A stretch of DNA of 64,000 nt from Natrarchaeobius chitinivorans (GTDB lineage: Archaea > Halobacteriota > Halobacteria > Halobacteriales > Natrialbaceae): positions 1 through 64,000 of the forward strand of contig NZ_REGA01000008.1 of the NCBI RefSeq assembly GCF_003841505.1. Direction: 5' to 3'. Below, piece after piece: positions 18,675 to 57,312 of this stretch. The notes under the pieces are model-generated. The model saw only the letters and a program-made list of their open reading frames with translations. It had not been told where the DNA came from and did not search any database. The translations under genes and the position numbers were made by a program. The first letter of the stretch is position 1; each line of letters starts with the position of its first letter.

Positions 18675-18839
18675 GGTCCGCGGACGGCGACCCTGGTGGC
18701 ACTGCCAACGGTAGACCGTATCAGATACGGCGAGATCGAGGATACGTTCGGCGGCGTCAGCAGTTCCACGCTATCGGCCCGACTGAGCGAGTTGATTGAC
18801 GCCGGACTGCTCTATAATAGCCTCCCAAGCGTCGACTGA
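18675..18839 (+). pseudogene. HxlR/ArsR-like winged-helix regulator remnant, cut by a repeat
   Basis: The frame reads RYGEIEDTFGGVSSSTLSAR then LSELIDAGLLYN, a clear HTH with wing of the HxlR type. It then runs into a 79-bp palindromic repeat, which supplies the last residues and the stop. No good start or wing remains, and the N-terminal part may be frameshifted. It is divergent from the ERQCC gene, as an autoregulated repressor would be. Confidence 0.65.
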
Positions 18840-18899
18840 TGAGCGAAATCACGCGATGTGGTCCGATTTCGCTCATCAGTGCAGGCTTGGGACGCCACT
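18821..18899. repeat. 79-bp palindromic element, copy 1
   Basis: Outer arms CCCAAGC/GCTTGGG enclose a perfect 15-bp inverted repeat (CTGATGAGCGAAATC) around a 14-base loop ACGCGATGTGGTCC. Copy 2 at 19739-19817 has the same length and flanks. The insertion breaks the HTH gene. Confidence 0.85.
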
Positions 18900-19005
18900 A
18901 GCGGACACAGCGGTCGTACCGATCGCCGGTTCGCGAGTGCCATCGCGATGACTCGAACCGATTGTGATCGGACGATCGCCGCCAGTCTGTGAGCAAAACA
19001 GACTT

Positions 19006-19633: not shown

Positions 19634-19648
19634 GCGATCGTCGCCGCC

Positions 19649-19734
19649 TGATACGGTTTACTGTCAGTCCTTACCGGCGCATCCGCCGCCCTGGTCGCCG
19701 GGGCGCCGGTAAACAGTGACAGTGATCCGTATGA
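19649..19734. repeat. TGATACGG-family repeat, copy 2
   Basis: Ends TGATACGG-TTTACTGTCA and ACAGTGATCCGTATGA are inverted copies; the centre carries TTACCGGCGC and GCGCCGGTAA, so the whole can fold into one hairpin. It follows vapC by 15 bases and touches palindrome copy 2. Confidence 0.75.
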
Positions 19735-19738
19735 GTAC

Positions 19739-19817
19739 CCTCCCAAGCGTCGGCTGATGAGCGAAATCGAACCACACCGCGTGATTTCGCTCATCAGTGC
19801 AGGCTTGGGACGCCACT
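19739..19817. repeat. 79-bp palindromic element, copy 2
   Basis: Same outer flanks and 15-bp stem as copy 1, but the 14-base loop reads GAACCACACCGCGT, which is the reverse complement of the copy 1 loop at 12 of 14 positions. The right end gives the apparent start codon of the next gene. Confidence 0.85.
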
Positions 19818-21233
19818 GATTTCGACGAACGTCTCCTTGCAGATGACCCCCAAGCACCTACGGTCTCGAGCGTGGTTTTCGACGACGTGACTCTCTCGCT
19901 CGCCCGGCGGGCCGCTCGATTTCCCGACCGAACGGCCGTCGTCGACATCTCCGAGGATCGGCGGTACGCGCCCCCGGAGACCATCCACGAGAATCGAGTC
20001 TCCTACGCCGAACTCTCGGAGTTGGCAGATCGAACGGCCGCCCGGCTCGCCTCGGTCGGGATCGACGCGGGCGACACCGTCTGTCTGCTCACCCGAAACC
20101 GGATCGCCTCGCTCGCTCTCCTGTTCGCCTGTCGACGCCTCGGCGCGACGCTCGCTCCCATCTCGCATCTCCTGACGCCGGTGACGGTCGAACGGCCGTT
20201 CGACGCGCTCGAGCCGTCGCTCGTCCTGGCCGAACCCGCCCAGCGCGACCTCGTCCGCTCGATCCCCTTTGACCGGTCGATGACCCTCGAGGCGCTGTCC
20301 GATATCGATCCCGCCGACGTGGACGCCACCGACACCGACGCCGCCGACGCGGACCCCGCGGACGGCAACCGGCCGCAGTCGGAGAACGCAGGGAACAATC
20401 GGCAGAGACCGAAACCGGATTCGGACGACCGCCATCGGCCGCTGCTCGCCCTCCACGGCGAGGGCGGTCGACCGGTCGCCGCGTTCTCCGAACGAACCCT
20501 CGAGTGGAACTGCATCACGGCAGTCGTGACGTGGGGGCTCCGTCGGAACGACGTCTCGCCGGTCGTATCGCCACTTGCGACGGCAACCGGACTCGTGCGT
20601 AACGCGCTTTCGCTGCTTTACGTCGGCGGTCGACTCCTGCTCGATCGGGCGTTCGATCCCGGCGATACGCTGACCGCGATGGCTGAGGAGGACGCAACGC
20701 TACTCGTCGGGCGAAAACCGGCGTTCCGGGACCTCGCTGCGGATTCGTCGTTCGACGACGCGACACGCTCGCTCGAGCGGGCCGTCCCCGACCAGTCGGT
20801 CACCGCGGATCTGCTCGATCCCTACCACGAGCGCGGCGTGACGGTCACCCGTGCGTACGGTCGACTCGAGTGTCCGGCCGCGCTCTGTCAACCGGAACCG
20901 AACGGCGTCGATCCGCGACTCACACCCGACGACGGCGTCGCGGTCGGCGTTCCGGTTCCGGACTGCCGGGTTCGAGTGGTCGACGAAGACGGCGACGTAC
21001 TCGAGGGCCCGGGGACGGGCCGACTCCAGGTCTCGGGACCGGTCGTCGCCGACGGCTACGTAAATGCTGCCGGTTTCGCCGACGACGATGGCGGGGAAAA
21101 CGAGGCGACGTCCGACCGAACGGTGAAACCGGACGACGTTGGATTCGCTGGCGGCGGGCGATTCGTCGACGGCTGGTTCGACACCGAAGAGTGGGTTCGC
21201 CGCGACGGGGACGGCGGCTTCGTCCTCGAGTGA
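19797..21233 (+). pseudogene. Acyl-CoA synthetase (AMP-binding) family gene, probably decayed
   Basis: 478 residues if read from a GTG inside the palindromic repeat. RRAARFPDRTAVVD, VSYAELSELADRTAARLASVGIDAGDTV and the C-terminal GRLQVSGPVVADGYVN to GWFDTEEWVRRD follow ANL-family synthetases. The P-loop, normally YTSGTTGxPKG, reads LALHGEGGRPVAAF, and the conserved YGxTE motif reads YGRLECPAAL. The final Lys domain is missing. The first eight residues come from the repeat, so the native start was lost or replaced. ATP-dependent adenylation is unlikely. The frame has stayed open. Confidence 0.65.
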
Positions 21234-24048: not shown

Positions 24049-24339
24049 ATGGGAACGATTTCGGCCCGCGTTCCGGACGACCTCGAGTCGGAACTCGAGG
24101 AGTACCTCGAGGAGGAGCGCCTCGACCGGAGTACGGCCGTTCGAAAACTCCTCTCGGAGGGCCTCGACGAGTGGCGTCGCGAGCGAGCGCTCGAGCGACT
24201 CGCTGACGGCGAGGTGACGCTTTCGAAAGCCGCGGAGAGCGCCGGCGTCTCCGTCTGGGAACTCGCGCGGCTCGCGAACGAACGGGACGTCACCTGGGTC
24301 TCGAGCGACCACCTCGATTCCGATCTCGAGGAGCTGTAG
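24049..24339 (+). CDS. RHH/UPF0175-type antitoxin
   Basis: 96 residues from the ATG at 24049. ISARVPDDLESELEEYLEEE is a ribbon-helix-helix arm, and GEVTLSKAAESAGVSVWELA is the UPF0175-type helix-turn-helix that usually precedes a DUF3368 toxin. It abuts the toxin gene with no gap. Confidence 0.85.
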   Translation: MGTISARVPDDLESELEEYLEEERLDRSTAVRKLLSEGLDEWRRERALERLADGEVTLSKAAESAGVSVWELARLANERDVTWVSSDHLDSDLEEL

Positions 24340-24852
24340 ATGTGGATCTTCGACGCGACCCCCCTCATCTACCTCGCAAAGGTGGATCGACTCGACCTGG
24401 TTACGCATCTCGACGGAGACTGTTTCGTCCCGGAGCGAATACACGCCGAAGTCGTAACGGCCGGCCTCGACGCGGGCTATCCCGACGCGCGTCGCATCGA
24501 ACGATCCATCGAGGCGGGCGTTTTTGAGATCGTTTCGGCCGACGGGAACCGTCTCTGGGATCGGTTGCAGGACAGTCCTGGGTTGAGCGATGCGGACGTC
24601 GCGGTGCTCGCGTGTGCCGACGCGTTCGACGCGACCGCCGTCATGGACGAGTCGGCGGGGCGAACGGCCGCAGAGATCGAGGGTATCGAGACGAACGGAA
24701 CGGCGTATCTGGTCTTGCTCTGTGCAAAACGCGGACACATCTCCGTCGCACAGGCGCGCGAGACGATCGATTCGATGGTCGACGACGGCTGGCACTGTGC
24801 ACCCGAGCTGTACGCTCGGATCGTCCGAAAGCTGGAGTCGCTCGAGGACTGA
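24340..24852 (+). CDS. PIN-like toxin (DUF3368 type)
   Basis: 170 residues. It begins MWIFDATPLIYLAKVDRLD, with the first PIN Asp, and continues GLSDADVAVLACADAF and AVMDESAGRTAA with further acidic residues. DUF3368 proteins pair with UPF0175 antitoxins and are expected to be nucleases. The TGA stop is the first codon of a TGATACGG half-repeat, after which a copy of the argF tail begins. Confidence 0.87.
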   Translation: MWIFDATPLIYLAKVDRLDLVTHLDGDCFVPERIHAEVVTAGLDAGYPDARRIERSIEAGVFEIVSADGNRLWDRLQDSPGLSDADVAVLACADAFDATAVMDESAGRTAAEIEGIETNGTAYLVLLCAKRGHISVAQARETIDSMVDDGWHCAPELYARIVRKLESLED

Positions 24853-24885
24853 TACGGATCGCTGTAGCGGAACGACCGCGGGGAG
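24850..24885. repeat. TGATACGG-family repeat, left half only
   Basis: TGATACGGATCGCTGTAGCG and GACCGCGGGGA match the left arm of the family, then it stops where the argF tail copy starts. Confidence 0.6.
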
Positions 24886-25088
24886 ACTCACTCGAGCAGC
24901 CAACTCAGAAGGGCCTTGACTGCCACCTTTTTTCGCTCGGGTTCGTTTCTCTCACCCTCACGAAAAAACCTGTCCGGCGAGAGCGTTGCTCTCGCTGACC
25001 GTCGCCTCACTTCGTTCGGCGAGAGACCAGAAAACCGCTCGCTTCGCTCGCGGCACACTCACTCGAGCAGCCAACTCAAAAGCGCCTT
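24886..25088. repeat. Tail duplication of argF with a 139-bp spacer
   Basis: 24886-24917 matches 25057-25088 at 30 of 32 positions; the second is the real argF end with its stop. The spacer has TTTTTTCG and CGAAAAAA arms near 24927-24967 and a GCTCGCTTCGCTCGC palindrome near 25036-25052. No gene was seen. Confidence 0.85.
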
Positions 25089-25988
25089 CTGTGCGTGCAG
25101 ACGGTTCTCGGCCTGGTCGAAGACGATCGAGCGGTCGCTCTCGACGACGTCGTCGGTGACCTCCTCGCCGCGGTGGGCGGGCAGACAGTGCATCACCGAC
25201 GCGTCGGGGGCCTGAGAGAGCAGGTCGGCGTTGACCTGGAACCCCTCGAAGTCGTTCATGCGGACGTCGCGTTCGTCCTCCTGGCCCATGCTGATCCAGA
25301 CGTCGGTGTAGATGACGTCGGCGTCCGCGGCTGCGTCGACGGGATCGTTCGTGAGCGTCGGCTCGCCGCCGAGCGCTCGAGCGCGCGCTCTGACGTCGTC
25401 GTCGATGCCGTACCCCGCCGGCGTCGCGATCGTGAGGTCGATGCCGGCCAGCGCAGCGCCGACGGCGAACGACTGAGCGACGTTGTTGCCGTCGCCGATC
25501 CAGGCCACCGACACGTCGTCGAACCCGCCTTCGTGCTCGCGGATCGTCAGCAGGTCCGCGAGCGTCTGGCAGGGGTGGGCGTCGTCGGTCAACCCGTTGA
25601 CGACCGGCACCGAGGCGTACTCCGCGAGCACCTCGATGTTGTCGTGTTTGAACACGCGAGCCATCACGGCGTCGACGTACCGCGAGAGGGTCCTCGAGGT
25701 GTCTTTCAACGGCTCGCCGTGACCGAGCTGAATGTCGTCCTCGCCGAGAAAGACCGCGTGTCCGCCGAGCTGGGTCATCCCCGTCTCGAAGGAGACGCGC
25801 GTTCGCGTGCTCGGCTTCTGGAAGATCATCCCAAGCGTCTGCCCGTCGAGGTCTTCGTGGTCTTCGCCTTCGTTCTGGGCGCGTTTGTACGCCGTTGCAC
25901 GATCGAGGATCGACTCGAGTTCGTCGTTCGTGACGTCGTCGATCTCGAGAAAGTGTCTCGGCTGCGTCTCGTCCGTATCTGGTGTCAT
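25059..25988 (-). CDS. argF: Ornithine carbamoyltransferase
   Basis: 309 residues. The carbamoyl-phosphate motif reads STRTR (FQKPSTRTRVSFE), with HPCQTLAD for ornithine/phosphate and HCLPAHRGEEV near the end, all as in OTCases. It makes citrulline from ornithine. It is the last gene of the arginine run, 66 bases after argE. Its last codons and stop are duplicated downstream. Confidence 0.96.
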   Translation of the reverse strand: MTPDTDETQPRHFLEIDDVTNDELESILDRATAYKRAQNEGEDHEDLDGQTLGMIFQKPSTRTRVSFETGMTQLGGHAVFLGEDDIQLGHGEPLKDTSRTLSRYVDAVMARVFKHDNIEVLAEYASVPVVNGLTDDAHPCQTLADLLTIREHEGGFDDVSVAWIGDGNNVAQSFAVGAALAGIDLTIATPAGYGIDDDVRARARALGGEPTLTNDPVDAAADADVIYTDVWISMGQEDERDVRMNDFEGFQVNADLLSQAPDASVMHCLPAHRGEEVTDDVVESDRSIVFDQAENRLHAQKALLSWLLE

Positions 25989-41431: not shown

Positions 41432-41512
41432 TACGGTCAACTGTGAGACATTTCCGAAGACCGCGGGAAGTCGTTCGGTCGCTCCGGTAATGACGTACAG
41501 CAGTCCTACGAA
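41429..41512. repeat. TGATACGG-family repeat, copy 4 (right end worn)
   Basis: TGATACGG-TCAACTGTGA at the left, GTACAGCAGTCCTACGA at the right, with an internal GACCGC/GTCGCTCCGGTAATGACG block as in copy 6. Confidence 0.6.
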
Positions 41513-46049: not shown

Positions 46050-47045
46050 ATGAACCGTCACGTTCGACGAGTGGTTCGCGCTGGACTCGTTCTCGGAGCC
46101 GTCATCGCCGGCGTTGTCGCCTATCGCCGGTTGCGAACCCGACCAACCCAACGCGAACCCGAACCGATCACGGAACGGCACAGCGGGGCGTTTCTCGTCC
46201 GCCGCCGGTGTGAGCCCGACCGACTCGAGGACGTGCGAGACGCCGTCGAACGACACGGCGGGACGTCCGCGGACGAGTGGCTGCTCGCCCTCGAGGGCGC
46301 GAGTACGGCCTCGCTGTTTCTCGATCGAACCGGCGACGACCCCGAACTCGTCTGGTACGTCGAGGTGCCGTGGGCCGCCGTCGAACAGTGGGACGGCGAC
46401 GACCCGGAGACGACGGTCGCGGCTGCGTTTCCACTGACCCACGAGGCGCTCGATGACGCCGACGAGCCGGTCGATCGGGAGCTGCTCGTCCACGCGGTCC
46501 ATCCCTCGCGGCCACGCAGGACCGTCGTCGACGCCGTCGCACTCGAGGGAACCGGTGACGCACTCGAGCGGGAGGCGCAGGCGGACCGAACCGCCGACCG
46601 CTCCGTCGACGTCGAACTGGTTCGGATGGACCTCGAGTCCGGGGTTCCGGAGCGATTCGCCGACTGGTTCGCCGCCCTCTCCCGCAACGTGACCGATGGC
46701 GAACTGCGACTGAATCGGATCGAAGCCTGGAGCATCGAGATGCTCGAGGCCGAAGACATGTTCACCGAATCGATCTTCCTCGAGCGCCGGCCCGACGGCT
46801 ACTCGCTTCTCGGCTACATGGAAACGGCCGAGATGGCCCGCGTGTACGACGCCTACTACGACACGTGGAACCCCGTCGCGCGGGCGTCCGAACTCGTGCT
46901 CGGTCGGGTTCTCGTCGATCCGGCGGTGATTCTCGAGTACCCGCTCGAGACGGACGTCGAACTCCTCGCACACGCGACGAATCCCGACCGGCCGCGTCGA
47001 GCGTCGGCGTGTGAGCGCTTCTCGAGCGAGTCTTCGGCGGAGTGA
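46050..47045 (+). CDS. DUF6176-type protein, two tandem domains
   Basis: 331 residues from the ATG at 46050; the frame is open far upstream but that part is noise. One N-terminal membrane helix (VVRAGLVLGAVIAGVVAYRR) is followed by two related halves. The second, with VRMDLESGVPERFADWFAAL and MFTESIFLERRPDGYSLLGY, is closest to DUF6176. The first half (RCEPDRLEDVRDAVERHG, STASLFLDRTGDDPELVWYV) repeats the pattern weakly. Function unknown. The TGA stop starts a TGATACGG repeat. Confidence 0.75.
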   Translation: MNRHVRRVVRAGLVLGAVIAGVVAYRRLRTRPTQREPEPITERHSGAFLVRRRCEPDRLEDVRDAVERHGGTSADEWLLALEGASTASLFLDRTGDDPELVWYVEVPWAAVEQWDGDDPETTVAAAFPLTHEALDDADEPVDRELLVHAVHPSRPRRTVVDAVALEGTGDALEREAQADRTADRSVDVELVRMDLESGVPERFADWFAALSRNVTDGELRLNRIEAWSIEMLEAEDMFTESIFLERRPDGYSLLGYMETAEMARVYDAYYDTWNPVARASELVLGRVLVDPAVILEYPLETDVELLAHATNPDRPRRASACERFSSESSAE

Positions 47046-47128
47046 TACGGATTGCTGTAACGATTTACCGGCGCAACCGCCGCCCGGGTCGCGGTTGCGC
47101 CGGCAATGACTTACAGTAAACCGTATGA
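47043..47128. repeat. TGATACGG-family repeat, copy 5 (well kept)
   Basis: TGATACGG-ATTGCTGTAA pairs with TTACAGTAAACCGTATGA; the inner TTTACCGGCGCAACCGC pairs with GCGGTTGCGCCGGCAA. Nearly the whole 86 bp can fold into one stem. The left end is the stop of the DUF6176 gene. Confidence 0.85.
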
Positions 47129-47491: not shown

Positions 47492-47716
47492 ATGACCGAC
47501 GGGGACTCGAGCGAGGCGGGCGGTCGCGCCCGAACCGTCGTCTCCGCGCTCCGTCTGGTCGCGGTCGTCTCGCTGCTCGTCGGCTTCAGCGGCTGGCTGC
47601 TCGAGGACGGCGAGGTGGTCCTCGAGTCGCCGTACACGCTCGCTTTCGCCGCGGGCGTCGCTTGCGCGCTCGCATCGATCTACCTTGGGATTTTTCTGGC
47701 CGAAGGCGGCGACTGA
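47492..47716 (+). CDS. Small two-helix membrane protein
   Basis: 74 residues from the ATG at 47492. A charged head is followed by two hydrophobic helices (ALRLVAVVSLLVGFSGWLL and TLAFAAGVACALASIYLGIFL). Such proteins are common in haloarchaea and have no known function. The TGA stop begins repeat copy 6. Confidence 0.65.
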   Translation: MTDGDSSEAGGRARTVVSALRLVAVVSLLVGFSGWLLEDGEVVLESPYTLAFAAGVACALASIYLGIFLAEGGD

Positions 47717-47799
47717 TACGGATTACTGTACCTGTGTACCGGAGCGACCGCGGGACTGCGCCCGGTCGCTCCGGTAACGACGTACAGTAAACCGTATGA
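47714..47799. repeat. TGATACGG-family repeat, copy 6 (well kept)
   Basis: TGATACGGATTACTGTAC pairs with GTACAGTAAACCGTATGA; the inner TACCGGAGCGACCGC pairs with GCGCCCGGTCGCTCCGGTA. It supplies the stop of the small membrane protein. Confidence 0.85.
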
Positions 47800-55090: not shown

Positions 55091-55303
55091 ATGCCCGACA
55101 AGACGATCCGTGTCTCCGAGGAGACGTGGCGGAGACTGCGGGCTCGCAAACGGGGCGAGGAGAGTTTCGACGCCGTCATCGAACGTGAACTCGAAGACGG
55201 TGATCCACTGGCCGGTTTCGGTGAGTGGAGTGATACGACGATCGACGACGCCGTCCGAGAGGTCAAATCCGAACTGGACGAGGATTTCGAAGTCGATCCA
55301 TGA
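55091..55303 (+). CDS. VapB-like antitoxin
   Basis: 70 residues: PDKTIRVSEETWRRLRARKR resembles the antitoxin at 19032, then EESFDAVIERELEDGDPLAG and an acidic tail for toxin binding. It overlaps vapC by four bases. Confidence 0.85.
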   Translation: MPDKTIRVSEETWRRLRARKRGEESFDAVIERELEDGDPLAGFGEWSDTTIDDAVREVKSELDEDFEVDP

Positions 55304-55689
55304 AAATCCTCGACAGCAGTTACTTCGCCGACTTTCTGCGCGGTCGAGAGTCGGCGAAACAGTACCGTCTCGACCACCAACACGAGAACTTCGTGCTCCC
55401 GTCGGTCGGCCACTACGAACTGTATCACGGTGCTGTCAAGGAACAGCGCGATCCCGTTCTCGTCGACGACCACCTGCCGTGGGTCGAACGCCTCGAATAC
55501 ACTCGAGAACACGCGCTCGAATCGGCCCGCATCCGTCAGGAACTGGAAGCAAACGGACTGCGTATCCAGCACCCGGATATGATGATTGCCGGTGTCGCGC
55601 GAACGCTCGGAGCCCCGATCGTCACGTCAGACGCCGGATTCGAGCGTATCGACGGCCTCGAAATCGACAACCACCGCGAACTGTACTGA
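55300..55689 (+). CDS. vapC: VapC-type PIN-domain toxin
   Basis: 129 residues. MKILDSSYFADFLRGRES carries the first Asp, then PSVGHYELYHGAVKE (Glu), and IQHPDMMIAGVARTLGAPIV and TSDAGFERI (Asp residues). It should be an Mg-dependent RNase. The aminopeptidase tail copy lies 20 bases after its stop. Confidence 0.9.
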   Translation: MKILDSSYFADFLRGRESAKQYRLDHQHENFVLPSVGHYELYHGAVKEQRDPVLVDDHLPWVERLEYTREHALESARIRQELEANGLRIQHPDMMIAGVARTLGAPIVTSDAGFERIDGLEIDNHRELY

Positions 55690-55709
55690 AACTGACTCCG
55701 TCTCGAGAC

Positions 55710-56041
55710 GCTCGCTTCGCTCGCCGACCGGGTCCAAACTACCCGCTCACTCCTCGTCTTCGAACACGAACGTCCCGTCCTCCTGGACCCGTTCGCCGTC
55801 GACTTCGATGAACGAATCGCTCCGAACTTTTTCGCTGGGTCCTCGCTCACGTCGTTCGCTCGAACCCAGCCAAAAACTTCGATGAAAAAGTCCACGACTC
55901 ACTGACGTTCGTCGCAGCCAATACTCTTCACGGCTCGCTTCGCTCGCCGACCGGGTCCAAACTACCCGCTCACTCCTCGTCTTCGAACACGAACGTCCCG
56001 TCCTCCTGGACCCGTTCGCCGTCGACCTCGATGAACGAATC
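55710..56041. repeat. Tail duplication of the aminopeptidase gene with a 114-bp spacer
   Basis: 55710-55818 matches 55933-56041 at 108 of 109 positions; the second is the true gene end plus 37 bp downstream. The spacer (55819-55932) can fold by TTTTTCGCTGGGT pairing with ACCCAGCCAAAAA. Confidence 0.92.
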
Positions 56042-57070
56042 CTCGCTCATGTCGACGATCATGTCCACGTGGACGGCGGAGTCGTTTTGCTCGTTGCCCT
56101 CGCCGACGGTGTCGTCGTAAGCCCGGCCGACGGCCATGTGGACGGTGTCGCCCATCTTCTCGTCGAACAGCATGTTGTACGTGAACTGGTCGATGTCGCG
56201 GTTCATCCCGATACCGAGTTCGCCGAGTCGGCGCGCGCCGTCGTCGGTGTCGAGCACCTCGGTGAGGACCGCCTCGTTTTTCGCCGCCGAGTGATCGACC
56301 ACGTCGCCGCCCTCGAACTCGAGGTAGACGTTCGTAATCTCCCGGCCCTGATGGTAAAGCGGCATGTCGAACAGCACCTCGCCCTCGACGCTGTCGGGTT
56401 GCGGGGCGGTGAAGACCTCGCCGCCCGGCAGGTTGTGCTCGCCGTGGTCGTTCAGCGTCGGATTCCCCGAAAGCGACATCGTTACGTCCGTGGTGTCGCC
56501 GCTTTTGATCCGGATCTCGTCTGCCGGATCGAGGATCTCTACCATGTTCGCCTGATGCTCGCGCTGGGCCTCCCAGTCTTTGTTGACCGCGTCCCAGACG
56601 AAGTTCTCGTAGGCCTCCGTGCTCATCTCGGCGAGTTGCGCGTTCGCCGGAGCGGGATACTGCGTGAGACACCAGCGTTTCGAGAGGCGCTTTTCGAGGA
56701 TCGGTCGCTGGGCCTGACTGTAGGCGGCGCTGGTCTCGGGATCGACGTCCGCAGTCTGGGTGACGTTGTCGCTCGCCCGGATGGCGATGTAGACGTCGGT
56801 GTTCTCGATGAGCGCGAGTTCGTGTTCGGGCGTCTCGAACTCGAGATCTGCGTCGTCGGCTGCAGCCCGGAGGTACGCACGCTGCTGTCGTTTGCCGGTT
56901 CGCTGACTCGTCGTCACCGGGTTCGCACCGCGGTCCCCGACGACCTCGTGGAGTGCAACGACGAGATCCTCGGCGACGGGATGGGCGTCGATTACGACGT
57001 TATCGCCCTCCTGCAGGTCGACCGAGTGGTTCGCGATGATCTCGGCGTGTTCGCGAATGCGCGGGTCCAT
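55970..57070 (-). CDS. M29-family (AmpS-type) metallo-aminopeptidase
   Basis: 366 residues from the ATG at 57070. The fold of thermophilic aminopeptidases T and S is visible, with VYLEFEGGDVVDHSAAKNEA, LGELGIGMNRDI, MLFDEKMGDTVHMAVGRAY and HVDMIVDM. Metal ligands lie in those segments. It removes N-terminal residues from peptides in the cytoplasm. It converges on the third toxin-antitoxin module. Confidence 0.92.
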   Translation of the reverse strand: MDPRIREHAEIIANHSVDLQEGDNVVIDAHPVAEDLVVALHEVVGDRGANPVTTSQRTGKRQQRAYLRAAADDADLEFETPEHELALIENTDVYIAIRASDNVTQTADVDPETSAAYSQAQRPILEKRLSKRWCLTQYPAPANAQLAEMSTEAYENFVWDAVNKDWEAQREHQANMVEILDPADEIRIKSGDTTDVTMSLSGNPTLNDHGEHNLPGGEVFTAPQPDSVEGEVLFDMPLYHQGREITNVYLEFEGGDVVDHSAAKNEAVLTEVLDTDDGARRLGELGIGMNRDIDQFTYNMLFDEKMGDTVHMAVGRAYDDTVGEGNEQNDSAVHVDMIVDMSEDSFIEVDGERVQEDGTFVFEDEE

Positions 57071-57312
57071 GTGCCACACGTACCCGAAGCGCCGGGATAC
57101 CGTTTTCGAATCGGCCCTCGAGAGGGGATCGTCATCACGGGACGTGTCCCCTCAGAATCGAATCGCCCGGGACCGAATTCGAAAGAGCGTGTCCAAACCG
57201 AACGGAGCGCCACCCCCGCGACGAAGTCACGCCGCAACCACCCCGTTGCTTTCTACTTCGTGTGCAAGTGTTTCGCCGCTTCGCGTACAACCTCGAAAGA
57301 ACGTGACTAATC

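Follow-up and report, generated by a model that had tools for sequence, protein, structure and literature searches.

The 64,000-nucleotide (nt) stretch that opens contig NZ_REGA01000008.1 of Natrarchaeobius chitinivorans, called the window here, contains two genes, one for an M29 aminopeptidase and one for ornithine carbamoyltransferase (argF), whose coding tails recur beyond their stop codons on the far side of a hairpin. At the M29 gene, reading outward from the coding region, the parts are the following.

55970 to 57079, minus strand: M29 aminopeptidase gene whose tail is duplicated (PF02073, E = 1e-67; stop at 55970).
55933 to 56041, minus strand: inner copy, made of the last 23 codons of the gene, the stop and 37 nt of 3' untranslated region (UTR), from the repeat comparison (translation DSFIEVDGERVQEDGTFVFEDEE, then stop).
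55890 to 55932, minus strand: remaining 3' UTR with an upstream hairpin, between the inner copy and the core, from the sequence.
55822 to 55889, minus strand: hairpin core of a second family, TTTTTCATCGAAGTTTTTG ... GAAAAAGTTCGG, with the foot stem CGAA/TTCG, from family comparison and folding.
55710 to 55818, minus strand: outer copy of the M29 tail, stop and UTR, abutting the right foot of the hairpin (99% identity).

The two 109-nt copies (55710–55818 and 55933–56041) are direct repeats that agree at 108 of 109 positions (99%) and enclose a 114-nt spacer, which contains a hairpin with T5 and A5 arms. The original prediction, made from the letters of the window, had described this near-identical copy with its single mismatch, its start 20 bp after the stop of a neighboring toxin gene, and a spacer capable of folding. 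All three descriptions hold: the VapC stop lies at 55689, 20 nt before the outer copy begins, and the spacer, taken as DNA, folds better than most shuffled versions of itself by a modest margin (z of -1.9; 6 of 200 shuffles are equally good).

At argF, the order of the parts is identical.

25059 to 25988, minus strand: argF, ornithine carbamoyltransferase gene (PF00185, PF02729).
25052 to 25088, minus strand: original argF tail, from the repeat comparison.
24923 to 25033, minus strand: first-family hairpin element, whose linker is interrupted between GGTC and CAGA by two additional hairpins (alignment A1).
24881 to 24917, minus strand: argF tail copy (KALLSWLLE, then stop), from the repeat comparison.

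The argF copy that had been proposed is real, with a gap of 139 nt, but the repeat is shorter than the one at M29 (30 of 32 nt between 24886–24917 and 25057–25088, or 37 nt at 89%). The sequence said to be shared by both loci, GCTCGCTTCGCTCGC, is indeed found at both, with exactly three occurrences, at 25037, 55710 and 55933. Because the M29 and argF pairs are the only non-tandem direct-repeat pairs that pass a scan of the window, chance repetition as the origin of these copies is ruled out.

The expectation that the two spacers would carry similar hairpins proved right as to architecture and wrong as to sequence, since they belong to two families. The conserved pattern is TTTTT-8 nt-TTTTTG...AAAAA, followed by -GGTGG or -GTTCG according to the family. 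Among 125 genomes of the window's taxonomic family, 69 have loci that match the argF-type (first-family) spacer; of 30 such loci fetched, most lie directly 3' of a same-strand stop, and about 20 then carry that gene's tail and stop. In alignment A1 (25 elements), the element reads TTTTTGGTC-two hairpins-CAGATTTTTGCGCGAG...CCCGAGCGGAAAAAG; many loci are without the two inner hairpins, and the core is TTTTTGGTCCAGATTTTTGCG-hairpin-CGGAAAAAGGTGG. The second family, that of the M29 spacer, reads TTTTTCATCGAAGTTTTTG-hairpin-AAAAAGTTCG. An exact pattern scan of species genomes gave four matches, and elements are present in Haloterrigena, Salinadaptatus, Halovivax and Natrialba. By Pfam, the genes at first-family loci include ileS, purH (AICARFT/IMPCHase), a hisF-type His_biosynth gene, a member of the diphthamide-synthase family, argF, a short-chain dehydrogenase and a metallo-beta-lactamase-fold gene, to which we add a glutamine amidotransferase that we call hisH because its C-terminus is HisH-like. 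The argF element of the window matches a relative's hisH element at 88% over 110 nt.

RNAalifold returned almost no covariation term (0.07) for the longer element alignment, so the base pairs of the foot stem were tallied one by one in 100 distinct cores of the first family and 21 of the second, which are not phylogenetically independent sequences. Positions 3–5 outside the T5/A5 arms pair in 98–100% of cases, with C-G, G-C and T-A as alternatives; the stem thus covaries, as in a conserved element that folds as RNA or single-stranded DNA. Beside the arms, mismatches are kept, A.G and G.G in the first family and G.G in the second. Such conserved mismatches would not be expected in a mere palindrome, which suggests that the element is probably recognized as a folded strand or by a protein. 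Two other identities were rejected. No known structured RNA family was recognized when four loci were compared with the Rfam covariance models at E values up to 1, and a coding extension at the right-hand end (KKV plus tail) was dropped because its frame is not conserved at hisH and the short-chain dehydrogenase.

The position of the hairpin follows a rule across the order. A 21-nt first-family core motif, allowing up to 2 mismatches, was searched in 100 Halobacteriales genomes from 54 genera and occurs in 57 genomes and 34 genera, with a backwards control giving at most one match per genome. About 90 loci were fetched, nearly all by the motif alone and a few targeted at known arrays or at known elements of one genome (G034; genomes and loci carry our G and L numbers throughout). 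A right end is recognizable in 86 of 98 cores, and it is sharp at the hairpin foot; 79 of the 86 lie within 420 nt after the end of a same-strand gene (median 57 nt). We counted as a tail copy any match between the gene tail and the 110 nt past the right end that exceeded the 99% null from other genes' tails. By this measure, the right foot meets a tail copy in 49 cores and the stop of an antisense gene within 25 nt in 15, and never both (Fisher 2.9e-8, a p-value that overstates independence because the loci are partly related, one gene recurring in several species). Neither is seen at 15 of the 79, which include visibly decayed copies (L222, L277, L290). Tail-copy loci span about 15 gene families, and the second hairpin family shows the same two states. 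When a T4/A4 hairpin filter was applied to 800 kb of the window's own genome, no further protein-gene cases came up, but this survey did point to the tRNA tail copies described below. Separately, two genomes from another family of the order, G065 and G092, hold 16 and 28 copies of the core motif, compared with 0–8 in the window's family, and many of these match the variant TTTTTAGTCCAGGTTTTTGCG.

The copies also carry a record of their history. At ileS, 17 of 29 species searched in one genus have a clear tail copy. The sequence after the last stop is common to an occupied site (G136) and an empty one (G139), so that the empty site joins cleanly. Tandem arrays of two or three units occur in G142 (two units, where G141 has one) and at L105, L245 and L305. 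Aligned tail copies are 30–105 nt long with a median of 45 nt, and the window's M29 copy is 109 nt. The two ileS tails of one genome differ at 4.6 of 45 nt, versus 6.9 when the same sequences are paired at random, and 0 of 10,000 permutations gave a difference as low as that observed. In G123 and G125, the first parts of both ileS tails share a species-specific codon and the last parts differ, a mosaic of the kind that would be expected from crossover or conversion; in G136, the ileS stop is TGA on the element side and TAA on the native flank.

An earlier count of tail-pair differences (101 synonymous, 31 non-synonymous) was biased, as those copies had been found by protein similarity, but it agrees in direction with the count that follows. 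In 41 pairs found at the nucleotide level, the numbers of mismatches at the first, second and third codon positions are 19/13/90, with zero gaps, and the deviations of the second ileS tail are distributed as 6/2/23. Judged by these patterns, the differences are filtered by coding selection, which would be expected of copies that are renewed from functional tails or trade sequence with them, and not of an old copy in simple decay. Together, the third-position differences and the likeness within genomes suggest that recombination appears to homogenize tail pairs. Some last copies retain part of the UTR and T-tract (L233, L240, L243, L228), which fits truncated tandem duplications, and others are decayed (L165, L172, L220, L222, L290). 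The hairpin cores are closer by gene than by genome: likeness is 0.85 for the same gene in different genomes (a class dominated by ileS of one genus), 0.80 for different genes in one genome and 0.765 for unrelated cores, which favors inheritance or exchange along the gene over recent transposition.

A similar arrangement is found at tRNA genes. The window and two further stretches of its genome, 864 kb in all, contain 11 tRNA genes. For 6 of these, the last 20 nt recur one to three times (up to 4 mismatches allowed) in the 700 nt downstream, and not at all upstream. The spacers carry hairpins, and several also an inverted tail copy. We regard these copies as a parallel, their membership in the hairpin family being unproven. 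At tRNA-Leu, tRNA-Met and tRNA-Gly (C1:54741-55259, C1:290312-290783 and C2:184628-185019 of the own genome), two or three further 3'-end copies are separated by hairpins, and in some tRNA spacers the inverted copy could pair with the tail.

The explanation that we favor, with a probability of roughly 45%, is that a terminator-like hairpin provokes local duplication of the tail before it, as a haloarchaeal gene-end structure unrelated to toxins. The conserved hairpin lies directly past the stop codon and, having T-tracts on both strands, is probably a shared transcription terminator. Its foot would be a preferred breakpoint, and a segment reaching from inside the gene tail to the hairpin would be duplicated, for example by template switching or by repair of a cleaved hairpin, leaving a second tail and stop at the right foot. 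The two tails could then be kept alike and mosaic by recombining homologously with each other and with alleles of other species, as the sequence patterns support. The same recombination could multiply the units or remove them cleanly, in line with the tandem arrays and the empty site; the order of these events is our own reconstruction. As to how the hairpin spreads or persists, we suggest tentatively that the 3' end of the gene before it, protein or tRNA, is copied again and again, so that the flank would be made anew at each locus and the right foot would always stand at a gene end.

Several observations weigh against local duplication. Many last copies are without the second hairpin that a tandem duplication should create, so that its later loss must be assumed. 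In some cases, such as G136, native flank directly follows the second stop. The constant meeting of the right foot with a gene end is not accounted for by chance breakpoints, and the presence of like elements at many genes suggests spreading, beyond duplication in place. The partial relatedness of the loci, by which the p-values overstate independence, counts here as well.

The main rival, which we consider possible but somewhat doubtful, is a small mobile hairpin, non-autonomous and mobilized in trans, with gene 3' ends as its insertion sites. On this view, the tail copies are either long target duplications or tails carried along when tail and hairpin, as one unit, enter the corresponding gene of another species by recombination. 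The dispersal of the element over about 15 gene families and several families of the order speaks for a mobile element, as does the sharpness of the right end, which coincides with the foot of the hairpin. Stem mismatches can occur in hairpins that single-strand transposases recognize, and those conserved here would be in keeping with such recognition. The mosaic ileS tails (G136, with TGA on the element side and TAA on the native flank) and the mainly synonymous tail differences would likewise suit this reading. However, copies of 30 to more than 100 nt are unlike a target duplication, and one of fixed size is ruled out by their varying lengths. Moreover, cores cluster by gene more than by genome, 15 convergent loci have the core without any duplication, and no plasmid, phage or viral-contig copy was found.

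It is also conceivable, but unlikely, that the tail copy is selected for a function, such as forming 3' ends or shielding the gene end by offering a spare partner for recombination. The strict meeting of hairpin foot and gene end and the recurrence at the same genes would be natural under selection, and the third-position bias extends to the second ileS tail (6/2/23). That bias could also come from recombination with functional alleles, however, and decayed copies are common (L165, L172, L220, L222, L290), whereas many relatives have no copy at all.

Less probable still is that these loci are remnants of integrative elements that used a tyrosine integrase and an attachment site in a gene 3' end and then lost their interior. 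Integration of this type classically leaves a copy of the tail behind a gene or tRNA, and the copies at 6 of the 11 own tRNA genes would fit. But what lies between the tails is a structured, conserved hairpin whose size is uniform and not a set of random leftovers, and the fetched loci have just this short hairpin there, with no virus or plasmid match. No integrase-bearing, plasmid or virus form of the element was found in the fetched loci or in the phage, plasmid and viral-contig collections, and a virus or plasmid carrier was rejected on this basis. A role of the duplication as an attachment repeat, which the original prediction had raised, is a possibility.

Finally, the original prediction had suggested that the two loci could be products of one mechanism by which toxin modules enter beside core genes. 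The window has toxin-like neighbors at both loci, which we judge unrelated to the copies.

55091 to 55303, plus strand: VapB-like antitoxin gene (PF02697), not present at other M29 tail-copy loci.
55300 to 55689, plus strand: VapC-like PIN-domain toxin gene (PF01850).
24049 to 24852, plus strand: UPF0175-like and DUF3368 pair, a putative antitoxin and PIN-type toxin (Pfam; UPF0175 at E = 8.8e-6, under its curated cut-off, and DUF3368 at E = 2.4e-10).

A single arrangement of gene tail, stop, UTR, hairpin and tail copy is common to both loci, and to this extent the idea of one mechanism stands, but its tie to toxin modules does not. Relatives with a copy and no toxin, and with a toxin and no copy, had been named as evidence that would speak against the tie, and both occur. 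The search covered 100 relatives, the closest of which belong to the window's own family, and the counts that follow are of fetched loci. At M29, 7 of 28 loci have a tail copy above the cut-off, and vapBC adjoins just one of them, that of the window; tail copy and spacer without vapBC are found in G001, G007, G013, G016, G034, G038 and G055. Relatives of vapBC were found elsewhere, away from M29 (L024). At argF, 7 of 28 loci pass the cut-off (L124 falls slightly under), of which 2 carry the UPF0175/DUF3368 pair, and L140 has the pair and no tail copy. The structure also occurs where no toxin genes are nearby, in about 15 further gene families; the copy is thus not confined to, or required by, an adjacent toxin module, as an entry scar would be. 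The adjacency of toxin-like genes to both window copies notwithstanding, we therefore give toxin entry practically no credence, as the majority of tail copies lack a toxin gene and the pair stands without a copy at L140. Separately, the pair adjoins argF in three genera (L140 = G052, L126 = G046 and the window at 24049-24852), with and without the copy, and its placement near argF may thus have a cause of its own.

Other repeats in the window are distinct from the hairpin family. A dispersed palindromic repeat of about 89 nt has three near-full copies, 76–78% alike (19646-19734, 47040-47128, 47711-47799), and partial ones at 581-639 and 41459-41500; its ends resemble TGATACGG and CCGTATGA. By eye, similar ends lie at 24852, beside the argF tail copy, and at L161 and L030 of relatives, and a strict pattern search of the fetched loci gave no match to them. 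A pair of 80-nt inverted repeats (18815-18900 and 19731-19820; 84% alike, 834 nt between the arms, each arm a hairpin) is possibly a small mobile element.

A conserved hairpin with gene-specific tail copies at its foot, recurring across many genera, is unusual as a genome structure. No description of hairpin-linked tail copying was found in the open-access literature searched, with most subscription journals outside that scope, and it appears to be undescribed. If the hairpin provokes the duplication, it would offer a natural system for terminator- or hairpin-driven local duplication and gene conversion in polyploid archaea. Annotation is also affected, since a tail copy can look like an attachment site or a fragment of a gene, and the structure bears on claims that tail duplications mark the entry of islands or toxin modules.

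Several known systems resemble parts of this structure. First, clean loss between direct repeats is documented in the haloarchaeon Haloquadratum (PMC3119063); such deletion accounts for empty sites and removal of units, but not for their origin. Second, integrative elements in the 3' ends of tRNA and protein genes likewise leave a copy of the gene end further downstream, but they carry an integrase and kilobases of cargo, whereas here about 100–200 nt with a conserved hairpin separate the copies. Third, miniature inverted-repeat transposable elements are short and dispersed, but they have the terminal inverted repeats of known transposons and short duplications of fixed length, in contrast to tails of 30 to more than 100 nt. 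Fourth, the repetitive extragenic palindromes and interspersed mosaic elements of bacteria (REP/BIME) are structured, lie after genes and occur genome-wide, but they have another sequence and no gene-tail copies, and the hairpin element has few copies per genome in most species. Fifth, the palindrome-associated transposable elements (PATEs) and IS605-type palindromic elements of haloarchaea (PMC3119063) are also short, palindromic, dispersed and devoid of a transposase gene. They have palindromes near both ends and make no target duplication, whereas most non-convergent cores here are flanked by long gene-specific direct repeats and contain a single hairpin. Sixth, archaeal terminators show a likeness in position. 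T-stretches terminate transcription in Haloferax volcanii (PMC7237163), and T5 tracts just past stops, with a hairpin upstream in some cases, are common to these terminators and the element. Correspondingly, 79 of 86 cores place a T-tract downstream of a coding-strand stop, and in convergent pairs one hairpin element could serve both genes. Unlike the T-stretch motif and hairpins set out in that study (PMC7237163), however, the core described here is a conserved family with a mismatched stem and a copy of the gene tail at its foot.
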